A DNA stretch of 64,000 bases from Flavobacteriales bacterium (GCA_015075325.1 JABTUP010000003.1:124001-188000), one strand, 5' to 3'; shown: positions 942-12,844, counted from the first letter of the stretch. Translations and numbers: made by a program. The notes: generated by a model not told the origin, from the letters alone.

Positions 942-1289
942 CTAGCTCCTAATCTTTAATTTATTAGGCTGCATTAAAACTGGAAAAAAATCAGTGATGT
1001 AGATTTTACCTATTGATTTATTTACAAAATAAATAATCTTGATTTCGAAATTGCGAGTTTCTTTGTATAAAATAAATCTAAATTGCTGTGGATATACTTT
1101 TAAGTTTGGTTCAAGAGTTCCTTTTTCTGGCATTAATGAAAGAGTTGAAATTAACTCTATAATATTAGCATCTATTTCAAGAGCTCTTTTAATACTAAAA
1201 TTATCCACTAGATACGCTAAAATTTCTTCTTGATATCTCTTTTCTGCTGGGTAAGTTATTTCAATTTCGAAGCTTTGTTGTTTAGCCAT
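942..1289 (-). CDS. ParE/RelE-superfamily toxin
   Basis: A 115-residue protein with the length and pattern of ParE-type toxins: an N-terminal strand FEIEITYPAEKRYQEEILAY, two helices ending in ISTLSLMPEKGT, then strands with QFRFILYKETRNFEIKIIYF and a closing GKIYITDFFPVL. ParE toxins usually poison DNA gyrase and RelE toxins cut mRNA on the ribosome; the sequence does not tell which applies. The ATG at 1289 lies inside the upstream antitoxin gene, overlapping it by 34 bases, so translation is probably coupled. A family call is safer than a target call. Confidence 0.75.
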   Translation of the reverse strand: MAKQQSFEIEITYPAEKRYQEEILAYLVDNFSIKRALEIDANIIELISTLSLMPEKGTLEPNLKVYPQQFRFILYKETRNFEIKIIYFVNKSIGKIYITDFFPVLMQPNKLKIRS

Positions 1290-3780: not shown

Positions 3781-5133
3781 CTATTTTGCTACAATAAATT
3801 TATTTGTAGTAATTGTATTTCCATTGTTACTAATGGTGTAGAAATAAATACCATTATTAAAATTTGTAGTATTTACTTTATGTTTGTTTGAAGTTGAAAC
3901 TGAATTGCTAACTGTTTTTCCAGTAATATCAACTATTCTAACACTATAGTTATTGATATTTAAATCAAAGTTGATAAAGTTTTGAACTGGATTTGGATAA
4001 ACGGCAACTTTTACGTTTTCAAATTCATTAATTGAAGTTGATATTTGAACATCATTCACATCTCTTGGCAATAACTTGAAATTGCTGAAAGAGAAATCTA
4101 CTACACCTGTTACATTATATATTGAACTAACTACAGCATTAAAGCTAAACATTTTGTTATCAACAATTAATGCTCCTGAGCCATCATTAATAGTCCATTC
4201 TCCATTTCCATTAGTTGCAGTATCTGCAGTACAAGTTGCACCCATTACTTTAACTAAAACGCCTTCGTATTGTTCATCGTTAACAGCTAATGTTGTTAGC
4301 GTTATTGCGGTAGGTAAAGTATTTCCTGATGAGTTTACTGTATAAGCTGATGGGTTTTCGATAGTTGTATAGTTAAAATATTCATCAACTGTACCTGTAA
4401 TAGTAATGTTATCACCAATAGTTGGGTCGTTAACATAATCTAAAACAAAAACACCGTTGTAAGCACCGTTACCATCTTGAATGTAGTATCCATTAAATTG
4501 AGTTGCAGTAACAATACCACTTGTTTCAACCAATTGACCCATGTATGGAGAATCAAAAGGTGGTGTTGTAGTGTTTTGAATTTGGTTAATTGTTACAGGT
4601 GTTCCAACTGGAGGAGTTGAAGATGAAATAGCAACTGAATCAACAATGATATCTGTTACACCATCAGTACTTCTAAATGATAAAATAAACTGAGCACTAT
4701 CAGTAGTAGAAGCAACAGTAACAAACTGAGAAATCATTACTAAACTACCAGCAGAAACTGTTGATAAATCAGCATAACTATTATAAGTTCCATAAGCACT
4801 AGTACTTACGTTATAGAAACCAGTTCTTAACTCTCCTGCACTTGCTTTTACCCACATTTTAATTTCATAAGTTTCACTTGGCACTACATCTAAAGTTGGA
4901 GTTGAAAATCTTTTGTGAGTTGTAGTAGTGTTTTTTAGAGCCGCAGCACTTGTTCCGTACATTACAGCAGGTACTTCTGTGATGTTTGATACAGTAGCAT
5001 TTGTTGTTGAACCCATCCAGTCGGTTGGTAAACCACCAGACCAAGAGCTTAAATTGCTTTGAAATACTACTTGTGCATTAGCAATACTACCTGCTACAAG
5101 CATTCCAATAAATAAAGTGTAGATTTTTTTCAT
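3781..5133 (-). CDS. secreted OB-fold-like protein with T9SS type A sorting domain
   Basis: A 450-residue secreted protein. Residues 1-20 are a signal peptide ending in ANA-Q. Residues 21-175 look like a beta-sandwich of the carbohydrate-binding/anchor type. Residues 180-365 contain an OB-fold-like module (ETSGIVTATQFNGYYIQDG) and a second related stretch (NGNGEWTINDGSGALIVD). From about 374 comes the type A sorting domain (VKVAVYPNPVQNF to the closing KFIVAK) that is removed on export through T9SS. Similar OB modules accompany secreted nucleases in other bacteria. It is last in the operon after the TonB receptor and two DUF5689 lipoproteins, and probably binds substrate at the cell surface. 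No catalytic motif is visible. Confidence 0.75.
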   Translation of the reverse strand: MKKIYTLFIGMLVAGSIANAQVVFQSNLSSWSGGLPTDWMGSTTNATVSNITEVPAVMYGTSAAALKNTTTTHKRFSTPTLDVVPSETYEIKMWVKASAGELRTGFYNVSTSAYGTYNSYADLSTVSAGSLVMISQFVTVASTTDSAQFILSFRSTDGVTDIIVDSVAISSSTPPVGTPVTINQIQNTTTPPFDSPYMGQLVETSGIVTATQFNGYYIQDGNGAYNGVFVLDYVNDPTIGDNITITGTVDEYFNYTTIENPSAYTVNSSGNTLPTAITLTTLAVNDEQYEGVLVKVMGATCTADTATNGNGEWTINDGSGALIVDNKMFSFNAVVSSIYNVTGVVDFSFSNFKLLPRDVNDVQISTSINEFENVKVAVYPNPVQNFINFDLNINNYSVRIVDITGKTVSNSVSTSNKHKVNTTNFNNGIYFYTISNNGNTITTNKFIVAK

Positions 5134-5163
5134 AGTTTATAGTTTTAAAATTTATATATAAAA

Positions 5164-6411
5164 TTAAGGATTTATTCCAATATCATCAATTTCCCAAGTG
5201 CCAACTCCAGATGCATTTATCCCAATGTGTTGAAATGCTATGTAAGTAGTTGCTGAAATGTAAGGAGTTAAGCTTAAATTTCCTGAGCTTGTCCAAGTAC
5301 TCCAAGAGTTTATGTCTGTGTCCCAAGTTGCTTGACTTGTTAAATCAACCCAAGTTGCTGTATTTGGATTACTTGTTCCATCATAGTTTGTAGAAACCAT
5401 TACTTTTAGTTGAGGATTTAATCCGTATCGTACCACGTTTCTAAAGTTAAAATACGGCGAAGTTGATGATGACAAATTAATAACTGGTGATATTAACCAC
5501 GATTCACTTGCTACACCACTACTTGTTCCTGAATTGTAACAAGATATTTTAGCCGCTGAATTTGTTGCTGCAAAAATACCCCATTCGGTGTATGATGGCC
5601 CTGATATGTGTTGAACAGTCCAGCCTCCAGAAGTTAAACTTTGGTCGTTAAAATCTTTAAAAATTGGTCTTGAACCAGTCATTTTTAATTCGTTAGGGTT
5701 TCTAATAATTAATTGTAAACCAGAATTATATTGAGCGACTACTCCAATAAAAGTTCCACTACCAGCTGGTAATGTGTCGTTTGCAAAATTTGCATAACCA
5801 CTCGTTCTAACATCAATTTGATTAGAACCTGCATCTTGTAAAATTCTGCTAACACTTTCTTTGTTTACACCATCGGCATAAGTTTTTGTTAAACCACCTT
5901 CTATAAAGAAAACACCATCTAACTGAACTAATTTCCCTTGGTAACTTTCCATGTTAGCTTTTAAAGTTGAAATAGATACCAATTCGGGAGTTCTAAACTG
6001 TTGAGTAGCAATTTTAGTTACGTTATTATCTGGATGAACCGAATCTACTTGAAGCATTTGATTATAACGAAGCAATTTTGTTTTGTTTAAATTAACACGA
6101 ATAGAATCGCCAATATAAACACCACTATTGGTCGTAAAACGTAAGTAAAGACCGCCTGTTTCATCTTGTATGTAGGTTTCTTTGTATAAATTACCAGTGC
6201 TTTCATCGGCAGTTACAACTCCATAAACAGTAATGTCTTGCGTAATTCTGGTTTCAGTTCCAGGAACATGAAGTGCTCTAACTTCAGCAATTGTAAGAAC
6301 ATTTCCAACAGGTATTGTTCTATTGGTTGGCGTATCATATTCTTTTGTGCAGCTAGTTAAAACAACTATTGTAGAAAAAAGAATTAAGCTATATTTTTGA
6401 ATACTTTTCAT
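5164..6411 (-). CDS. surface lipoprotein, DUF5689 plus choice-of-anchor J domain (paralogue 1)
   Basis: A 415-residue lipoprotein with lipobox LTSC (C21), followed by a Lys/Glu/Asp-containing start that may act as a surface-export signal. Residues 40-225 match DUF5689, with an OB-like core VYGVVTADESTGNLYKETYI and YQGKLVQLDGVFF. Residues 235-415 form a jelly-roll of the choice-of-anchor J/cleaved-adhesin type, ending TWEIDDIGINP. It is clearly a tandem duplicate of the next gene upstream, sharing the GGWT, SWLISP and TWEIDD landmarks. It follows a TonB receptor in the position that SusD-like proteins take in other loci, so a substrate-capture role at the outer membrane is a fair inference. 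Confidence 0.8.
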   Translation of the reverse strand: MKSIQKYSLILFSTIVVLTSCTKEYDTPTNRTIPVGNVLTIAEVRALHVPGTETRITQDITVYGVVTADESTGNLYKETYIQDETGGLYLRFTTNSGVYIGDSIRVNLNKTKLLRYNQMLQVDSVHPDNNVTKIATQQFRTPELVSISTLKANMESYQGKLVQLDGVFFIEGGLTKTYADGVNKESVSRILQDAGSNQIDVRTSGYANFANDTLPAGSGTFIGVVAQYNSGLQLIIRNPNELKMTGSRPIFKDFNDQSLTSGGWTVQHISGPSYTEWGIFAATNSAAKISCYNSGTSSGVASESWLISPVINLSSSTSPYFNFRNVVRYGLNPQLKVMVSTNYDGTSNPNTATWVDLTSQATWDTDINSWSTWTSSGNLSLTPYISATTYIAFQHIGINASGVGTWEIDDIGINP

Positions 6412-6420
6412 GTGTTTTGC

Positions 6421-7665
6421 TTATATATCGTTAATGGTAAAATCGTCTATTTCCCAAGTACTTCCGTTTGAATTGGTTCCAGTGTATTTAAATGCAAATC
6501 GAACTCCTGCTTGTTTGTAGCTACTAAGGTTAATATTACCCGATCCAGCCCAAATAAAATTACCTGTTGACCATGTTGCAGAAGAAGTAATATCTGTCCA
6601 AGTTGTGGTGGTTACATCTCCAGTATATGCAGTTGTTACATATAGTCTTAATGCATCTCCTGTATATTTATATGCCGACTGGAAATAAAGGATAGGATTA
6701 GTTAAATTGGTTAAATCAAAGCTAGGAGAAACTAACCATGTTTCGCAAGCAGTATTTGTTCCACTGTAATTAGAAATCATGGCATAATAAGTATTGTTTG
6801 AACCAACATCTGCAATACTCCAATTGATGTTACCAACTACATTTTGCTTAGTCCATCCACCAGACGTAATGCTTTGGTCTTCAAAGTTTTTTACATAAAC
6901 AGGGCATTTAATTTTTCTAGTTCCTGTTAAAGAAAGGTCTTCTAATTTTCTAATGGTTAACTGAACGGTTGTGTTGTATTGTGAAACAATTGCCACAAAA
7001 GAGCCTTTACCTTTTGCAAGAGTTGTTCCTGCAAAACTAGAATAACCACTTGAACGAACAATAATGGTGTTTCCTAACGTATCTCTTAAAGTTCTGTTTT
7101 GGTCGTATTGGGCAATAGGGTCGGCATAAGTACTCCAAATGTCATCGCAAATAAATTCCACATCGTTTAATTGAACTAACTGACCTTGAAAAGGAGAGTA
7201 AACACCTGAAATAGCTAAGTCTGCAATTGTAACCACTTTAGGAGCAATTTCTTCGCCTTTAGTTTGTTTTATGATTTGTTTTTCAGGGTCAACATTAATA
7301 ACTTTCAACATGTTGTTTTCACGAGCAACGGTTAGCCCTTTTAAAGCAACTCTAACTCGGTCTCCTTGAAAAAACAAACGAGAACTCGATGCTGTAAGTT
7401 CTAATTGAATAGCGTTTGTTGCATCTTGTATATACAATACTTTATATAAATTTCCGCTAATTTCATCAGCTGTAACTGTTCCATACACCGATAAATCTGC
7501 AGTAATGGTTGTATCAAAAGCGGTGTAAATTTTTCTGAGCGAATCAATGGTTATAATATTTCCTGCAGGTAAATCTGCTACAGGAGGTGTATCGAAATCT
7601 TTTTTACAACCAATTAAGGCTAAAGAGCCTATAAGTAGTGTTAAGATGGAATTTTTAATGTTCAT
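6421..7665 (-). CDS. surface lipoprotein, DUF5689 plus choice-of-anchor J domain (paralogue 2)
   Basis: A 414-residue lipoprotein with lipobox ALIGC (C20) and the charged residues KKDFD after it. The DUF5689 part (about 35-230) has VYGTVTADEISGNLYKVLYI and PFQGQLVQLNDVEF, the same landmarks as its neighbour. The C-terminal jelly-roll (about 240-414) has GGWTKQN, ETWLVSP and TWEIDDFTIND. It lies 9 bp before paralogue 1 and 24 bp after the TonB receptor gene, so all are on one transcript. Two diverged copies suggest either a heteromeric cap on the receptor or different ligand preferences. Confidence 0.8.
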   Translation of the reverse strand: MNIKNSILTLLIGSLALIGCKKDFDTPPVADLPAGNIITIDSLRKIYTAFDTTITADLSVYGTVTADEISGNLYKVLYIQDATNAIQLELTASSSRLFFQGDRVRVALKGLTVARENNMLKVINVDPEKQIIKQTKGEEIAPKVVTIADLAISGVYSPFQGQLVQLNDVEFICDDIWSTYADPIAQYDQNRTLRDTLGNTIIVRSSGYSSFAGTTLAKGKGSFVAIVSQYNTTVQLTIRKLEDLSLTGTRKIKCPVYVKNFEDQSITSGGWTKQNVVGNINWSIADVGSNNTYYAMISNYSGTNTACETWLVSPSFDLTNLTNPILYFQSAYKYTGDALRLYVTTAYTGDVTTTTWTDITSSATWSTGNFIWAGSGNINLSSYKQAGVRFAFKYTGTNSNGSTWEIDDFTINDI

Positions 7666-7689
7666 ATTCTTGGTTCGTTAAATTAGTTA

Positions 7690-10218
7690 TTAAAAAGAAA
7701 AGCTCACCATTGCAAAGTATGTTCTACCGTACATGTAGCCCACTTTTGGTGGAAATCTGTCAATGTTTTGTTTATCGTAACGCAATTGTTCAAAGCCACC
7801 AGTTGCGTAGTCTTTTTTATCTAATACATTGTTTACGTTTATGTTTATTCTTACAAAATATTTTCTTTTAATACGCCATGATTTTCCTCCAAACACATTA
7901 ATGGTATAACCATCGTCTAATTTGGTTTGTTCTAAAAGTTTTTCTACTTGAGGGTCGGTACTAACAAAGCCAGCTAAAGCTTCTTCAGTTCTTCTATCAG
8001 GATTTGCTTCCAAATAAGCATCCATAAAATAATTGAAATTAGCTCCAGCAAACCAAAATTTAGGTGAGCTGTATTTAAGACCTAGAGATGCAGCTGTTTG
8101 AGGCATTCCGCCAATTTTATAGTTTTCGAAGTACACAATTTTGTTTTCTGCTAAAAGTTTGGTTGAGTTGTCTTGAGAAATGGTAACAACTGGTCGTGAA
8201 TTGTATATGTAATCGCCCATGGTAAAAGCACCAGTAGCTTCAATGGTTGGGGTAATGTTAACTTCCGCACCCAATTCAATTCCTGTAAACAATTGGTCAA
8301 CACCTGTCATCATGTAATTGATAAAGGTATTGTATTCATCATTAAAAAAGCTTCTCGACCAAGTTTTGTCTTTTATGGAAGTATAGAAACCTGTTAAACG
8401 AGTTTTAACCTTTGGATAACGAACCATGTAGCTGATATCTCCTGTTGTATTAATTTCACTTTTTAGGTTGTCAACTATCTGGTTTCTGGTTCTTGGCGAA
8501 ACAAATGCATCTCTTGAGTTTGGAGCTACTGTTAAAAAAGCTAGGTTAATACCCACTAAATGACGACCTGTAATTTTGTATATTAAACCAGTTTTAATTC
8601 CATAATTAAGAAACGATTTTTTTTCAGAATCACCTTTTGAATTATCTTGAAACAAACCATTTTTAACATTTCCTGTTCTCCAAAAACTTGTATTAGAAAT
8701 AGTTAATCCAACATACCAATCAATTTTTTCGGTTTTACCTTCTGCTTGAGCAAAACTGTTAATTGTGTTAATGTTGATGTCGTAATCGTATCCAAATTTA
8801 TCGCCAACTTTAACAATTCTATTCGGAACTTCAACATTAGATTGTGCTGCTGTTTCATCAGCAAAGTCGCGTTCAGCAAAACGGTCAACATCTACCCAAT
8901 AATCGGCTCCCAACAAATCATTCATTACTTTAAAGTTCATGCTTTTATAAAAGCTTCCGTTTAAACCACCCGACAACATTATTTTTTCATTCAACTGGTG
9001 TGTAAAAGTTGAGTTAAATCCGTATTGGCTATGGTCAGTTCGGTATTCTTCGATAATATACTTTGCTCTGTTTCCGGTTACTGTATTGCCTTTTACTCCA
9101 TTTGCATCAACTACACTGTGTAAGTTTTTGCTGTTAGCAAAATACATTTGGTCGAAATTGAGTTGTTGTGTATTTACATCAGTTTGCCAAAGTTGGGTGT
9201 ATAACTCATAAAGTGCTTCATCGCCAGGATTACTATAATAGCTTGGCAAGTTTCTGTAATAGTCAGGTCTTGGGTCGGCAGCATCATACCAATTTAAACG
9301 AGTTTGACCGCCTCGTCCAAAAGAATAGAATAACGAAGAGTTTATTGTTGTTTTATCATTTAAAGTAAAATAATGATTTAACATCATCATTGGTTTGTGA
9401 GTGTTTCTAATTCGGCTGTTTCTTTTTTCGCCTGCTTGATAACCCCAAAATGAGTTGTATTGATTATTTCCTGTTAAATCATAAGCTTCTTGTACAGAAA
9501 TACTTTGCCCTCCAGAAACTGTTGGAGAACCATAACCAACAAAACCTAAGCTATGTTTATCGTTAAACTTTTTTTCTACCGATAGAAAGTAACTTGCTCC
9601 TCTATAAAAAGTACCTTCAACATAACCTTCGTTGGCATATCTCATCGAACCAGAAACAGTAACTGCTAAATTATTTTCCATCATTCCTGTTGAAGTAGTA
9701 AACATTAAACGATGGTCGTAAGTTTGATTTGCTAATGCATAAGATATTTTAGTGCCTTTTCTTTGTGATGATGCCCTCGCATTAATGTTTGAATATCCAC
9801 CTATTCCACCAAAAGTAAGTTGAGAAGCTGATATTCCTGATTTTGATTCTTGGTATCGAGTAATGTCATTTAAACCTCCCCAATAAGCCCAAATTGCTCT
9901 ACCCATTTCGGGGTCGTTAAGTGTAACACCATTCATCATGGCAGTAAAATTATCTGAGTCGTAACCTCTAATTCTGAAACGAGCAACACCAAAGTTAAAT
10001 CCTGCAATAGATGTATAAACATCACGAGAGGATTGTAAAAGTCCAGAAACATCTTGGTTTTCTGATTCATCATCTAACTGTTCGATAGTGGTACTAAACT
10101 GTGGTACAAATCTTGTTAGGGTGTCGTCGTCGATGGCTTGTAGCGTATCAGATTGAGCAAAACTTTGATTGATAACAACAACACCTAAAACGACCAAAAA
10201 TAACTTTAAACTTTTCAT
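7690..10218 (-). CDS. TonB-dependent outer-membrane receptor
   Basis: An 842-residue receptor with signal peptide (to about 22, ending QSFAQ), a short extension, a plug domain at about 50-165 containing RIRGYDSDNFTAMMNGV and LNDITRYQESK, then a long 22-strand-type beta barrel rich in alternating aromatic residues, ending in YFAMVSFSF with the C-terminal Phe expected for Bam-dependent assembly. It lacks the long N-terminal carboxypeptidase-like domain of SusC proteins and no SusD homologue is adjacent. Ligands of such receptors cannot be read from sequence; the two secreted nuclease-fold enzymes encoded divergently point to nucleic acid fragments, nucleotides or another phosphodiester product. 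Confidence 0.9.
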   Translation of the reverse strand: MKSLKLFLVVLGVVVINQSFAQSDTLQAIDDDTLTRFVPQFSTTIEQLDDESENQDVSGLLQSSRDVYTSIAGFNFGVARFRIRGYDSDNFTAMMNGVTLNDPEMGRAIWAYWGGLNDITRYQESKSGISASQLTFGGIGGYSNINARASSQRKGTKISYALANQTYDHRLMFTTSTGMMENNLAVTVSGSMRYANEGYVEGTFYRGASYFLSVEKKFNDKHSLGFVGYGSPTVSGGQSISVQEAYDLTGNNQYNSFWGYQAGEKRNSRIRNTHKPMMMLNHYFTLNDKTTINSSLFYSFGRGGQTRLNWYDAADPRPDYYRNLPSYYSNPGDEALYELYTQLWQTDVNTQQLNFDQMYFANSKNLHSVVDANGVKGNTVTGNRAKYIIEEYRTDHSQYGFNSTFTHQLNEKIMLSGGLNGSFYKSMNFKVMNDLLGADYWVDVDRFAERDFADETAAQSNVEVPNRIVKVGDKFGYDYDININTINSFAQAEGKTEKIDWYVGLTISNTSFWRTGNVKNGLFQDNSKGDSEKKSFLNYGIKTGLIYKITGRHLVGINLAFLTVAPNSRDAFVSPRTRNQIVDNLKSEINTTGDISYMVRYPKVKTRLTGFYTSIKDKTWSRSFFNDEYNTFINYMMTGVDQLFTGIELGAEVNITPTIEATGAFTMGDYIYNSRPVVTISQDNSTKLLAENKIVYFENYKIGGMPQTAASLGLKYSSPKFWFAGANFNYFMDAYLEANPDRRTEEALAGFVSTDPQVEKLLEQTKLDDGYTINVFGGKSWRIKRKYFVRININVNNVLDKKDYATGGFEQLRYDKQNIDRFPPKVGYMYGRTYFAMVSFSF

Positions 10219-10450
10219 TAACGAGTTAAGATTTTGAATGATTTAAAGCGGTTAGAAGTCTTATTGGAATGCTTCCTAGGGTGATCACTTTTTGTAAATT
10301 TTTTATATCGACAAAGGTAAATCAAATAAATTATAAATTATTCGTAATCATTAATTTGTTAATAATTTTTTAACACAACATTTACCTCAACACATTGATC
10401 AAAATAAAATTCCTAAACATAATTAATTAGCTTTGCCAAAAATTAGAATC

Positions 10451-11506
10451 ATGATTAATTTAACCAAAAACCTCCTATTACTTCTATTTGTAACAATTTC
10501 AGCTCAATTTGTTGCTCAAACAGATTCGACAAAACAATACCAAGTTACAGCTATTGGTTTTTACAATTTAGAAAATTTACACGACACTATTTTTGATGCC
10601 GACACCAACAAAATAATGCAGGATGACTATACTCCTGAAGGCGATAAAAAATGGAATACCGAAAAATACAAACACAAATTAGAAAATCTTTCAAAAGTAG
10701 TTGCTGAAATGGCAACAGAGGTTGTTCCTGATGGTTTGGCAATACTTGGTATAGCCGAAATTGAAAACAAAAATGTGGTGGAAGATTTGGTAAAAACAGA
10801 AAAATTAAAATCAAGAAACTATCAAATTGTTCACTACGAATCGCCTGATAAAAGAGGAATAGACGTTGGATTAATTTATAATCCAAATTACTTTAAATTA
10901 AAATCGAGTAAATCGTTTCCTTTAAAGATTGATGGTGATTCAACATTCTTTACCAGAGACCAATTACTTGTTAGTGGTTTGTTAAACGGTGAAATGATTC
11001 ATGTAATTGTTGCTCACTGGCCTTCGAGAAGTGGTGGCGAAAAAAAAAGTGCTCCAAAAAGAATTGCTGCCGCTAATTTAGGCAGAACAATAATCGATTC
11101 ATTATTAACTTACGATTCAACTGCTAAAATTATTTACATGGGCGATTTAAACGACGACCCAACAAATACGAGTGTAAAAAAACATTTAAAAACTGTTGAT
11201 AAACCAGAATTAGCAAAAGGTAGTGTGTTGTACAACCCCATGGAATCCTTTTACAAAAAAGGAATTGGAACATTAGCTTACCGCGATGTATGGAATCTAT
11301 TTGACCAGTTAATTGTTTCGTCGGCTTTAGTAGGAAAAGATTATTCTTCATTAAAGTTATACAATGCCAAAGTGTTTAATAAAAACTACTTAAAACAAAC
11401 CACAGGGCAATATGCTGGCTATCCACTTAGAACACACGCGGGCGGAGCTTATACAGGAGGATACAGCGACCATTTTCCGGTATATTTGTATTTAATTAAG
11501 GAATAA
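10451..11506 (+). CDS. secreted endonuclease/exonuclease/phosphatase family enzyme
   Basis: A 351-residue DNase I-fold enzyme. The ATG at 10451 is chosen over the TTG at 10433 because it gives a compact signal peptide (hydrophobic 8-19, VAQ at 21-23). Catalytic landmarks are in order: N39 in FYNLEN, E103 in IAEIEN, H189 in AHWPSR, the pair GDLND at 231-235, and D340-H341 in SDHFPVY. All active-site residues of the Mg-dependent phosphodiesterase fold are therefore present. There is no T9SS tail, so it may stay periplasmic. Known members cut DNA, RNA or phosphoinositides; substrate is not fixed here. It is divergent from the TonB receptor operon. A TAGCTTTG at 10428-10435 resembles a Bacteroidota -7 box, without a good -33 partner. 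Confidence 0.88.
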   Translation: MINLTKNLLLLLFVTISAQFVAQTDSTKQYQVTAIGFYNLENLHDTIFDADTNKIMQDDYTPEGDKKWNTEKYKHKLENLSKVVAEMATEVVPDGLAILGIAEIENKNVVEDLVKTEKLKSRNYQIVHYESPDKRGIDVGLIYNPNYFKLKSSKSFPLKIDGDSTFFTRDQLLVSGLLNGEMIHVIVAHWPSRSGGEKKSAPKRIAAANLGRTIIDSLLTYDSTAKIIYMGDLNDDPTNTSVKKHLKTVDKPELAKGSVLYNPMESFYKKGIGTLAYRDVWNLFDQLIVSSALVGKDYSSLKLYNAKVFNKNYLKQTTGQYAGYPLRTHAGGAYTGGYSDHFPVYLYLIKE

Positions 11507-11590
11507 AGAGATTTGAGGATTTGAAAATGAAACTAAATCCTAAAGACTAACTCCTTTAACGACTGATGCCTAACTCCTAACTCAAAAAAA

Positions 11591-12844
11591 ATGATGAATA
11601 AAGCACATAAAATATTTTTTCTTACGGTTGTTGTAACTTTAAACTTTGAACTTTTATCCTTTAACTGTTCAGCACAAGATACTATTTCTGTAATGTCTTA
11701 CAACATTTTAAACTACCCATTATCAAATTCTACAAAAGCCGATACATTAAAAGCCATCATAAAACATTCTCAGCCCGATATTTTTATGATAACGGAGTTA
11801 ACCAGTTCTACTGGAGTTTCATTAATTCTTAACAATGCTTTAAATGTTGATGGAATAACACATTATTCATCAGCGACATATGTAAATGGACCTGATACCG
11901 ACAACATGTTGTTTTATAACAGCCAAAAATTCGGATTAAAATCTCAAAACGAAATACCTACCGTTTTACGAAACATTAGCGAATATGTATTGTATTACAA
12001 ATCGCCCAATTTAGCTACAACGCTAGATACCACTTTTATACACTGCTATATGGCACACTTAAAAGCAAGTAATACTCCTGCCGATTCTATTCAAAGAAAC
12101 CAAGAAGCAGTTACGTTTAAAAACTATTTAGACAACAAAAATCAACCTGTAAAAAACATAATTTTAGGTGGCGATTTTAATGTTTATACCAGCAACGAAG
12201 CTGCTTACAACACCATTTTAAATGGAGGCTCTGTTTCGCTAAAAGACCCCATTAATACACCTGGAAATTGGCAGGCAAACAGTTCATTTTCAGCCGTTCA
12301 CACACAAAGTACCCGAACATCTATTTTGCCCGATGGAGGCTCAACCGGTGGGTTAGACGATCGTTTTGATTTTATTTTTGTTGGCGATGATGTAATGCAA
12401 GGAACCAATAAATTAAAATACATTGCTGGAACGTATAAAGCTTTAGGCAACGATGGTCTTCATTATAACAAATCGTTGTTGGCTTCACCAACAAACACTA
12501 GCGTTCCGTTTAATGTTTTACAAGCATTGTATTACATGTCTGACCACCTACCAATTGTTATGAAAGCTTATATCGACGAAGCTGTTTCTGTTAATGAAAA
12601 TACTTCAAAAGAAAATTGGAGAGGTTATTTTTCGGACAATAAATTTGTGTTTAAGTCGGATAAAGTAGAGCAACAACTCAACGTTCAATTAATTGATATT
12701 TTAGGAAAACCAATACAAAAGAAATTATACCAAAACCAACATTCGTTTGAGTTTGATTACAACCACTTAACAAATGGTTTATATTTTGTAAAAGTTTGGA
12801 ACAACCAACAATTACTAAAAACATATCGAATAGTTAAGCAATAA
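11591..12844 (+). CDS. secreted endonuclease/exonuclease/phosphatase enzyme with T9SS type A tail
   Basis: A 417-residue exported enzyme. After a signal peptide (to about 29, FNCSAQ) comes a DNase I-fold domain with SYNILNYP, ITELTSSTG (catalytic Glu), CYMAHLKAS, GGDFNVY (Asp/Asn pair) and MSDHLPIVM (Asp-His). From about residue 345 a type A sorting domain follows, with LNVQLIDILGKP and LTNGLYFVKVW, so it should be displayed or released by T9SS. It lies 84 bp after the first enzyme gene, and the gap holds short reiterated words such as CTAACTCC. The two enzymes are only distantly similar, which suggests successive steps of degradation at the surface and in the periplasm. Confidence 0.87.
   Translation: MMNKAHKIFFLTVVVTLNFELLSFNCSAQDTISVMSYNILNYPLSNSTKADTLKAIIKHSQPDIFMITELTSSTGVSLILNNALNVDGITHYSSATYVNGPDTDNMLFYNSQKFGLKSQNEIPTVLRNISEYVLYYKSPNLATTLDTTFIHCYMAHLKASNTPADSIQRNQEAVTFKNYLDNKNQPVKNIILGGDFNVYTSNEAAYNTILNGGSVSLKDPINTPGNWQANSSFSAVHTQSTRTSILPDGGSTGGLDDRFDFIFVGDDVMQGTNKLKYIAGTYKALGNDGLHYNKSLLASPTNTSVPFNVLQALYYMSDHLPIVMKAYIDEAVSVNENTSKENWRGYFSDNKFVFKSDKVEQQLNVQLIDILGKPIQKKLYQNQHSFEFDYNHLTNGLYFVKVWNNQQLLKTYRIVKQ

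Follow-up and report, generated by a model that had tools for sequence, protein, structure and literature searches.

A candidate DNA-uptake locus of the Riemerella anatipestifer transformation type in a member of the Flavobacteriales

The locus at positions 3781–12844 of the window (the whole stretch of 64,000 nucleotides that was analyzed) is probably, judging from comparison of its genes, an outer-membrane DNA-uptake module, and most likely one of the type used for natural transformation by Riemerella anatipestifer. It would serve as a DNA importer feeding the periplasm and ComEC, because the same trio (enzyme, receptor and DUF5689 protein) is found near comEC and recA in R. anatipestifer, where loss of either the receptor gene or the DUF5689 gene abolishes transformation. 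The first-pass annotation had proposed a nucleic-acid harvesting locus in which DUF5689 lipoproteins replace SusD. From that proposal we keep the nucleic acid and the SusD-like place of the lipoproteins, but not the nutritional purpose, since the sole genetics on an orthologous locus concerns transformation (PMC8459023).

Results

ORF calling and family profile matches bear out the six open reading frames described earlier, in both coordinates and families. On the minus strand, a TonB-dependent receptor (TBDR) of 842 amino acids (7690–10218), which is our proposed DNA channel and has only a sub-threshold match to the Plug family, is followed by two surface lipoproteins, a (6421–7665) and b (5164–6411), and by a T9SS-secreted OB-fold-like protein (3781–5133). 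The lipoproteins are tandem paralogues, 40% identical, each carrying DUF5689 plus a choice-of-anchor J/DUF5017 domain; a search of the 3.3 Mb source genome found no further DUF5689 genes, and the receptor/lipoprotein pair is single copy there. Lipoprotein a (lipobox IGC-KKDFD) is the orthologue of R. anatipestifer RA0C_RS04920. Acidic residues follow both lipoboxes (KKDFD in a, TKEYD in b), as suits export to the surface. The OB-fold-like protein has a T9SS tail; its region 204–311 matches the N-terminal part of ExeM/NucH nucleases and its region 200–366 is related to DUF5689 (hhalign E 1.4e-6), and a profile search found no nuclease domain in it. On the plus strand, divergent from the receptor, lie a first DNase I-fold enzyme (10433–11506; Exo_endo_phos_3, PF19580, E 9e-128) and a second (11591–12844; Exo_endo_phos, PF03372) with a T9SS tail that places it at the cell surface. 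Elsewhere in the window, a small ORF at 942–1289 (minus strand) gives a ParE-toxin-like match below threshold.

As the first-pass annotation had noted, a profile search of the six proteins gave no match to SusD or to glycan enzymes, so that the SusD-like lipoprotein beside the receptor by which a SusCD-type utilisation locus is recognized is absent from the set scanned. The locus shares with SusCD polysaccharide utilisation loci (PULs) and with the PusCD phosphate systems of Flavobacterium (PMC8115612) a receptor, a surface lipoprotein and secreted or periplasmic hydrolases, but DUF5689 stands in the place of SusD/PusD and the enzymes have nuclease folds, in contrast to glycan hydrolases or phosphatases. 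Similarly, the T9SS proteins of these loci have OB-like or LTD domains in common with ExeM/NucH and the LTD-endonuclease I extracellular nucleases, whereas those are single secreted enzymes and not part of a receptor-based import module.

The first enzyme probably starts at an ATG near 10451 rather than at the TTG at 10433, to judge from its signal peptide. Since it has neither a lipobox nor a T9SS tail, it is probably periplasmic. Its residues N45, E109/E111, H195, D238, N240, D291, D346 and H347 are invariant in all 32 aligned orthologues, that of R. anatipestifer included, while E69, H156, D195, N197, D260 and D318-H319 of the second enzyme are kept in 7 of 7 aligned members, in an alignment where the first Asn region precedes the truncated start of one member. 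The complete catalytic sets claimed earlier are thus found for the first enzyme and, as far as the listed residues go, for the second, and both proteins are candidate nucleases with intact active sites. A sequence search of solved structures returned nothing useful for the receptor or either enzyme, and AlphaFold models made from one or two sequences reached mean pLDDT values of 38 and 46, too poor for comparison.

In a transposon screen for natural transformation in R. anatipestifer, the TBDR RA0C_RS04915 and the DUF5689 protein RA0C_RS04920 proved essential, and markerless deletion of RS04915 or RS04920 lowered transformation from 5.4e-5 to below about 4e-10, i.e., below detection (PMC8459023; Huang et al. 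2021). Neither protein resembles known competence machinery, the uptake model includes a nuclease without an assigned gene, and RS04910 is mentioned merely as an upstream gene whose transcription is unchanged (PMC8459023). Mutations in tonBA and tonBB also inhibit transformation, the effect of tonBB being ascribed to iron (PMC8383284). Among the papers searched, PMC8459023 alone mentions either DUF5689 or the RA0C locus tags; NCBIfam names the DUF5689 lipoproteins after an R. anatipestifer gene.

An R. anatipestifer genome was located via the published comEC primer and the locus was then read from it. The order is recA, dinB, sdhB, sdhA, sdhC, comEC, a small gene, a carboxylase, a PF19580 enzyme (minus strand), the TBDR (plus) and the DUF5689 gene (plus). 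These 11 genes fit the tags RA0C_RS04870 to RS04920 one-to-one, from which we infer that the enzyme is RA0C_RS04910. Aligned identity between the window and R. anatipestifer is 36% for the TBDR (817 columns), 43% for the enzyme and 32% for DUF5689. The best match of the window TBDR in that genome scores 434 bits and the next 118, and in a tree the R. anatipestifer TBDR is nested in the window's clade (support 0.90/0.996), with a second R. anatipestifer TBDR and the receptors of a sister module (described below) outside it. In both loci, therefore, an orthologous TBDR is followed directly, as the definition of the module requires, by an orthologous DUF5689/DUF5017 lipoprotein, and the same DNase I-fold gene is divergent beside the receptor, a feature that we add to that definition. 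They differ in that only the window has a second DUF5689 gene, the T9SS OB-like protein, the T9SS nuclease and a leader RNA, that the window receptor does not have the N-terminal carboxypeptidase-like domain of its R. anatipestifer counterpart, and that comEC and recA do not adjoin the window locus. Near its locus this R. anatipestifer strain also encodes a Cas9-type protein, along with two cas-like genes (L077:9211-14653). Fjoh_3841, a phosphate-induced orphan receptor of F. johnsoniae (PMC8115612), is possibly an orthologue of the window receptor.

The earlier proposal called for a neighbourhood search across genomes, and the families are indeed co-located elsewhere. Among 197 Bacteroidia genomes, counting as strong matches those above 100 bits for DUF5689, above 300 bits for the TBDR and above 255 bits (or split matches) for the first-enzyme clade, the TBDR/DUF5689 pair occurs in 44, the source genome included, and in 42 of the other 43 DUF5689 directly follows the TBDR gene. 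The first-enzyme clade is present in 44 of 44 pair-bearing genomes and in 0 of the remaining 153, where only weaker paralogues occur. Its distance from the pair is at most 15 kb in 34 of 43 genomes and greater in 9; against a null of 1.8% per genome this gives P about 3e-51, an order of magnitude only because the surveyed genomes are related. In most cases it is the divergent neighbour of the receptor, as it is here, though in several genomes it stands at the opposite end of the module. Five families include genomes with the locus and genomes without it, and within these the enzyme and the receptor always come or go as a pair. Of 40 related loci, about 14 have a T9SS OB-like protein after DUF5689 and 6 have the T9SS enzyme. 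Because the T9SS proteins are found in a minority of loci, the conserved core is the enzyme, the TBDR and DUF5689, and both T9SS proteins are accessory. In one genome a PF19580 enzyme unlinked from the receptor locus adjoins another protein with a weak DUF5689 domain (L116, G165:C13).

Genomes with weak DUF5689 matches carry DUF5689-like proteins, many of them about 730–800 aa long with T9SS tails. When 41 such proteins were scanned, PLD was found in 18, endonuclease I in 3, EEP in 1 and an annotated OB nucleic-acid-binding domain in 6. In eight genomes the DUF5689-like protein stands behind a TBDR of about 910–1000 aa that is preceded by a protein of 310–350 aa, an LTD protein where scanned. 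This sister module (L092-L099), made up of the LTD-type protein, the TBDR and an OB-fold T9SS protein with a fused PLD or endonuclease I domain, has no EEP enzyme. PLD fusions also occur within window-type loci (L033, L042, L054, L055). Since three unrelated nuclease folds are tied to the same binding domain and to related receptors, these associations support nucleic acid, rather than lipids or phospho-sugars, as the likely substrate.

The 5′ UTR of the TBDR gene contains a structured leader RNA supported by covariation (10240–10298, minus strand). It is about 60 nt long and consists of P1 (AAAGUG/CGCUUU), a conserved GANCAYCCUA, a variable hairpin P2 and AAC; Rfam scans matched it to no family. 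A first model, from six upstream sequences, led to more copies in relatives, and a second, from 36 sequences, to further copies across the class. The E-values from these models are rough, and one antisense match within the enzyme gene of L066, probably spurious, entered the second. P1 pairs in 97–99% of the cells of the 36-sequence set, and the whole structure has 58 double-sided changes compared with 21 in shuffles, and 0 of 500 shuffles reach 58. A set of 19 sequences outside the training, itself picked by the model, keeps P1 in all cells. A DNA-pattern search of the 197 genomes returned three family-f1 loci plus three chance matches in coding sequence.

The leader precedes window-type TBDR genes in six class genomes (G000, G032, G156, G023, G136, G160) and in further relatives, and in another setting the LTD gene at the start of the sister module, again in six genomes (G015, G056, G061, G073, G119, G195). 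In two genomes it stands before a gene that reads, by its sequence, as deoC, deoxyribose-phosphate aldolase (L179, G015:C50:29350-29432; L193, G119:C229:14311-14392), and in G119 this copy is about 8 kb from a sister module. Large secreted proteins are also preceded by it, in one case by two copies in direct tandem before a single gene (L202, G174:C27:153027-153168). The source genome has four copies (the window copy, G000:C1:167237-167294, C12:21081-21129 and C23:74354-74406); the model search gave no match in R. anatipestifer. Taken with the three nuclease folds and the orthology to a DNA-uptake locus, the leader held in common with deoC makes both a nucleic-acid substrate and a SusD-like place for the DUF5689 lipoprotein well supported as predictions.

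Discussion

In the mechanism that we propose, the DUF5689 lipoproteins, with a presumed OB-like fold, would catch DNA at the cell surface, where the surface nuclease may cut it and so make ends, and the TonB-powered receptor would draw the DNA across the outer membrane. In the periplasm the first DNase I-fold enzyme, a candidate for the nuclease lacking from the R. anatipestifer model, would then process the DNA, which would pass to a helix-hairpin-helix (HHH) protein and ComEC. What we infer from the comparison is that DNA is bound and crosses through the barrel, what each nuclease does, and that the source organism transforms. The source genome does have a ComEC homologue (G000:C1:192126-192926) and, on the window's contig about 27 kb before the window, an HHH protein with an N-terminal membrane segment (G000:C23:96328-97257; L088:2329-3261), which resembles the one essential for R. 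anatipestifer transformation. However, ComEC and HHH are near-universal in the class (193 and 191 of 197 genomes), so their presence does not discriminate.

Several points count against uptake as the function. The window proteins are only 32–43% identical to their R. anatipestifer counterparts, the enzyme gene has no reported role in transformation, and F. johnsoniae, which has homologues, failed to transform in the conditions that were tried (PMC7965970). A surface nuclease could also destroy transforming DNA, and that the leader also precedes deoC suggests catabolism. Partial use of the imported DNA as food would nevertheless be compatible with an uptake module, and may occur, because Bacteroidota consume DNA (PMC8289736) and because of that same deoC leader.

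If nutrition were the whole purpose, surface nucleases would cut DNA or RNA, the DUF5689 lipoproteins and the receptor would import oligonucleotides, and the periplasmic enzyme would finish them for carbon, nitrogen or phosphorus, transformation not being the purpose here. The surface nuclease, the leader common to deoC and the sister modules, and the incorporation of DNA carbon by Bacteroidota such as Lutibacter, which carry extracellular nucleases (PMC8289736), all fit such a utilisation locus, but we consider it unlikely: the minimal core of R. anatipestifer, consisting only of the enzyme, the TBDR and DUF5689, has no surface nucleases and is essential for transformation there, and in the source genome the pair is single copy, with no PUL-type regulator seen adjacent to it. 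Far less probable is organic-phosphate scavenging, in which the enzymes would act on phosphoinositides or phospholipid head groups that the receptor imports. EEP-fold enzymes do include lipid and inositol phosphatases. F. johnsoniae also has phosphate-regulated receptor loci with phosphodiesterases, PusCD systems included (PMC8115612). Against this, in related loci PLD and endonuclease I domains replace the EEP enzyme or accompany it, and the orthologous locus is one of DNA uptake. That the pair and the enzymes are unrelated neighbours is hardly credible, for although the enzyme is more than 15 kb away in 9 of 43 genomes, co-location in the other 34, in more than one orientation, and perfect clade co-occurrence in effect refute it.

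With DNA uptake as the preferred reading of the locus, a broader one can be offered tentatively, as possible rather than probable: TonB-dependent DNA importers may be widespread in Bacteroidia, in a DUF5689/DNase I-fold type and a sister type with LTD and OB-PLD or OB-endonuclease I proteins, and in several families both types would stand under the same new structured leader, which may sense a DNA-derived or second-messenger ligand.

As regards how DNA crosses the outer membrane in Bacteroidota, the survey connects the R. anatipestifer locus with a conserved nuclease-fold partner, with related modules whose nuclease folds differ, and with a candidate regulatory RNA. This bears on both gene transfer and DNA recycling by an abundant phylum.
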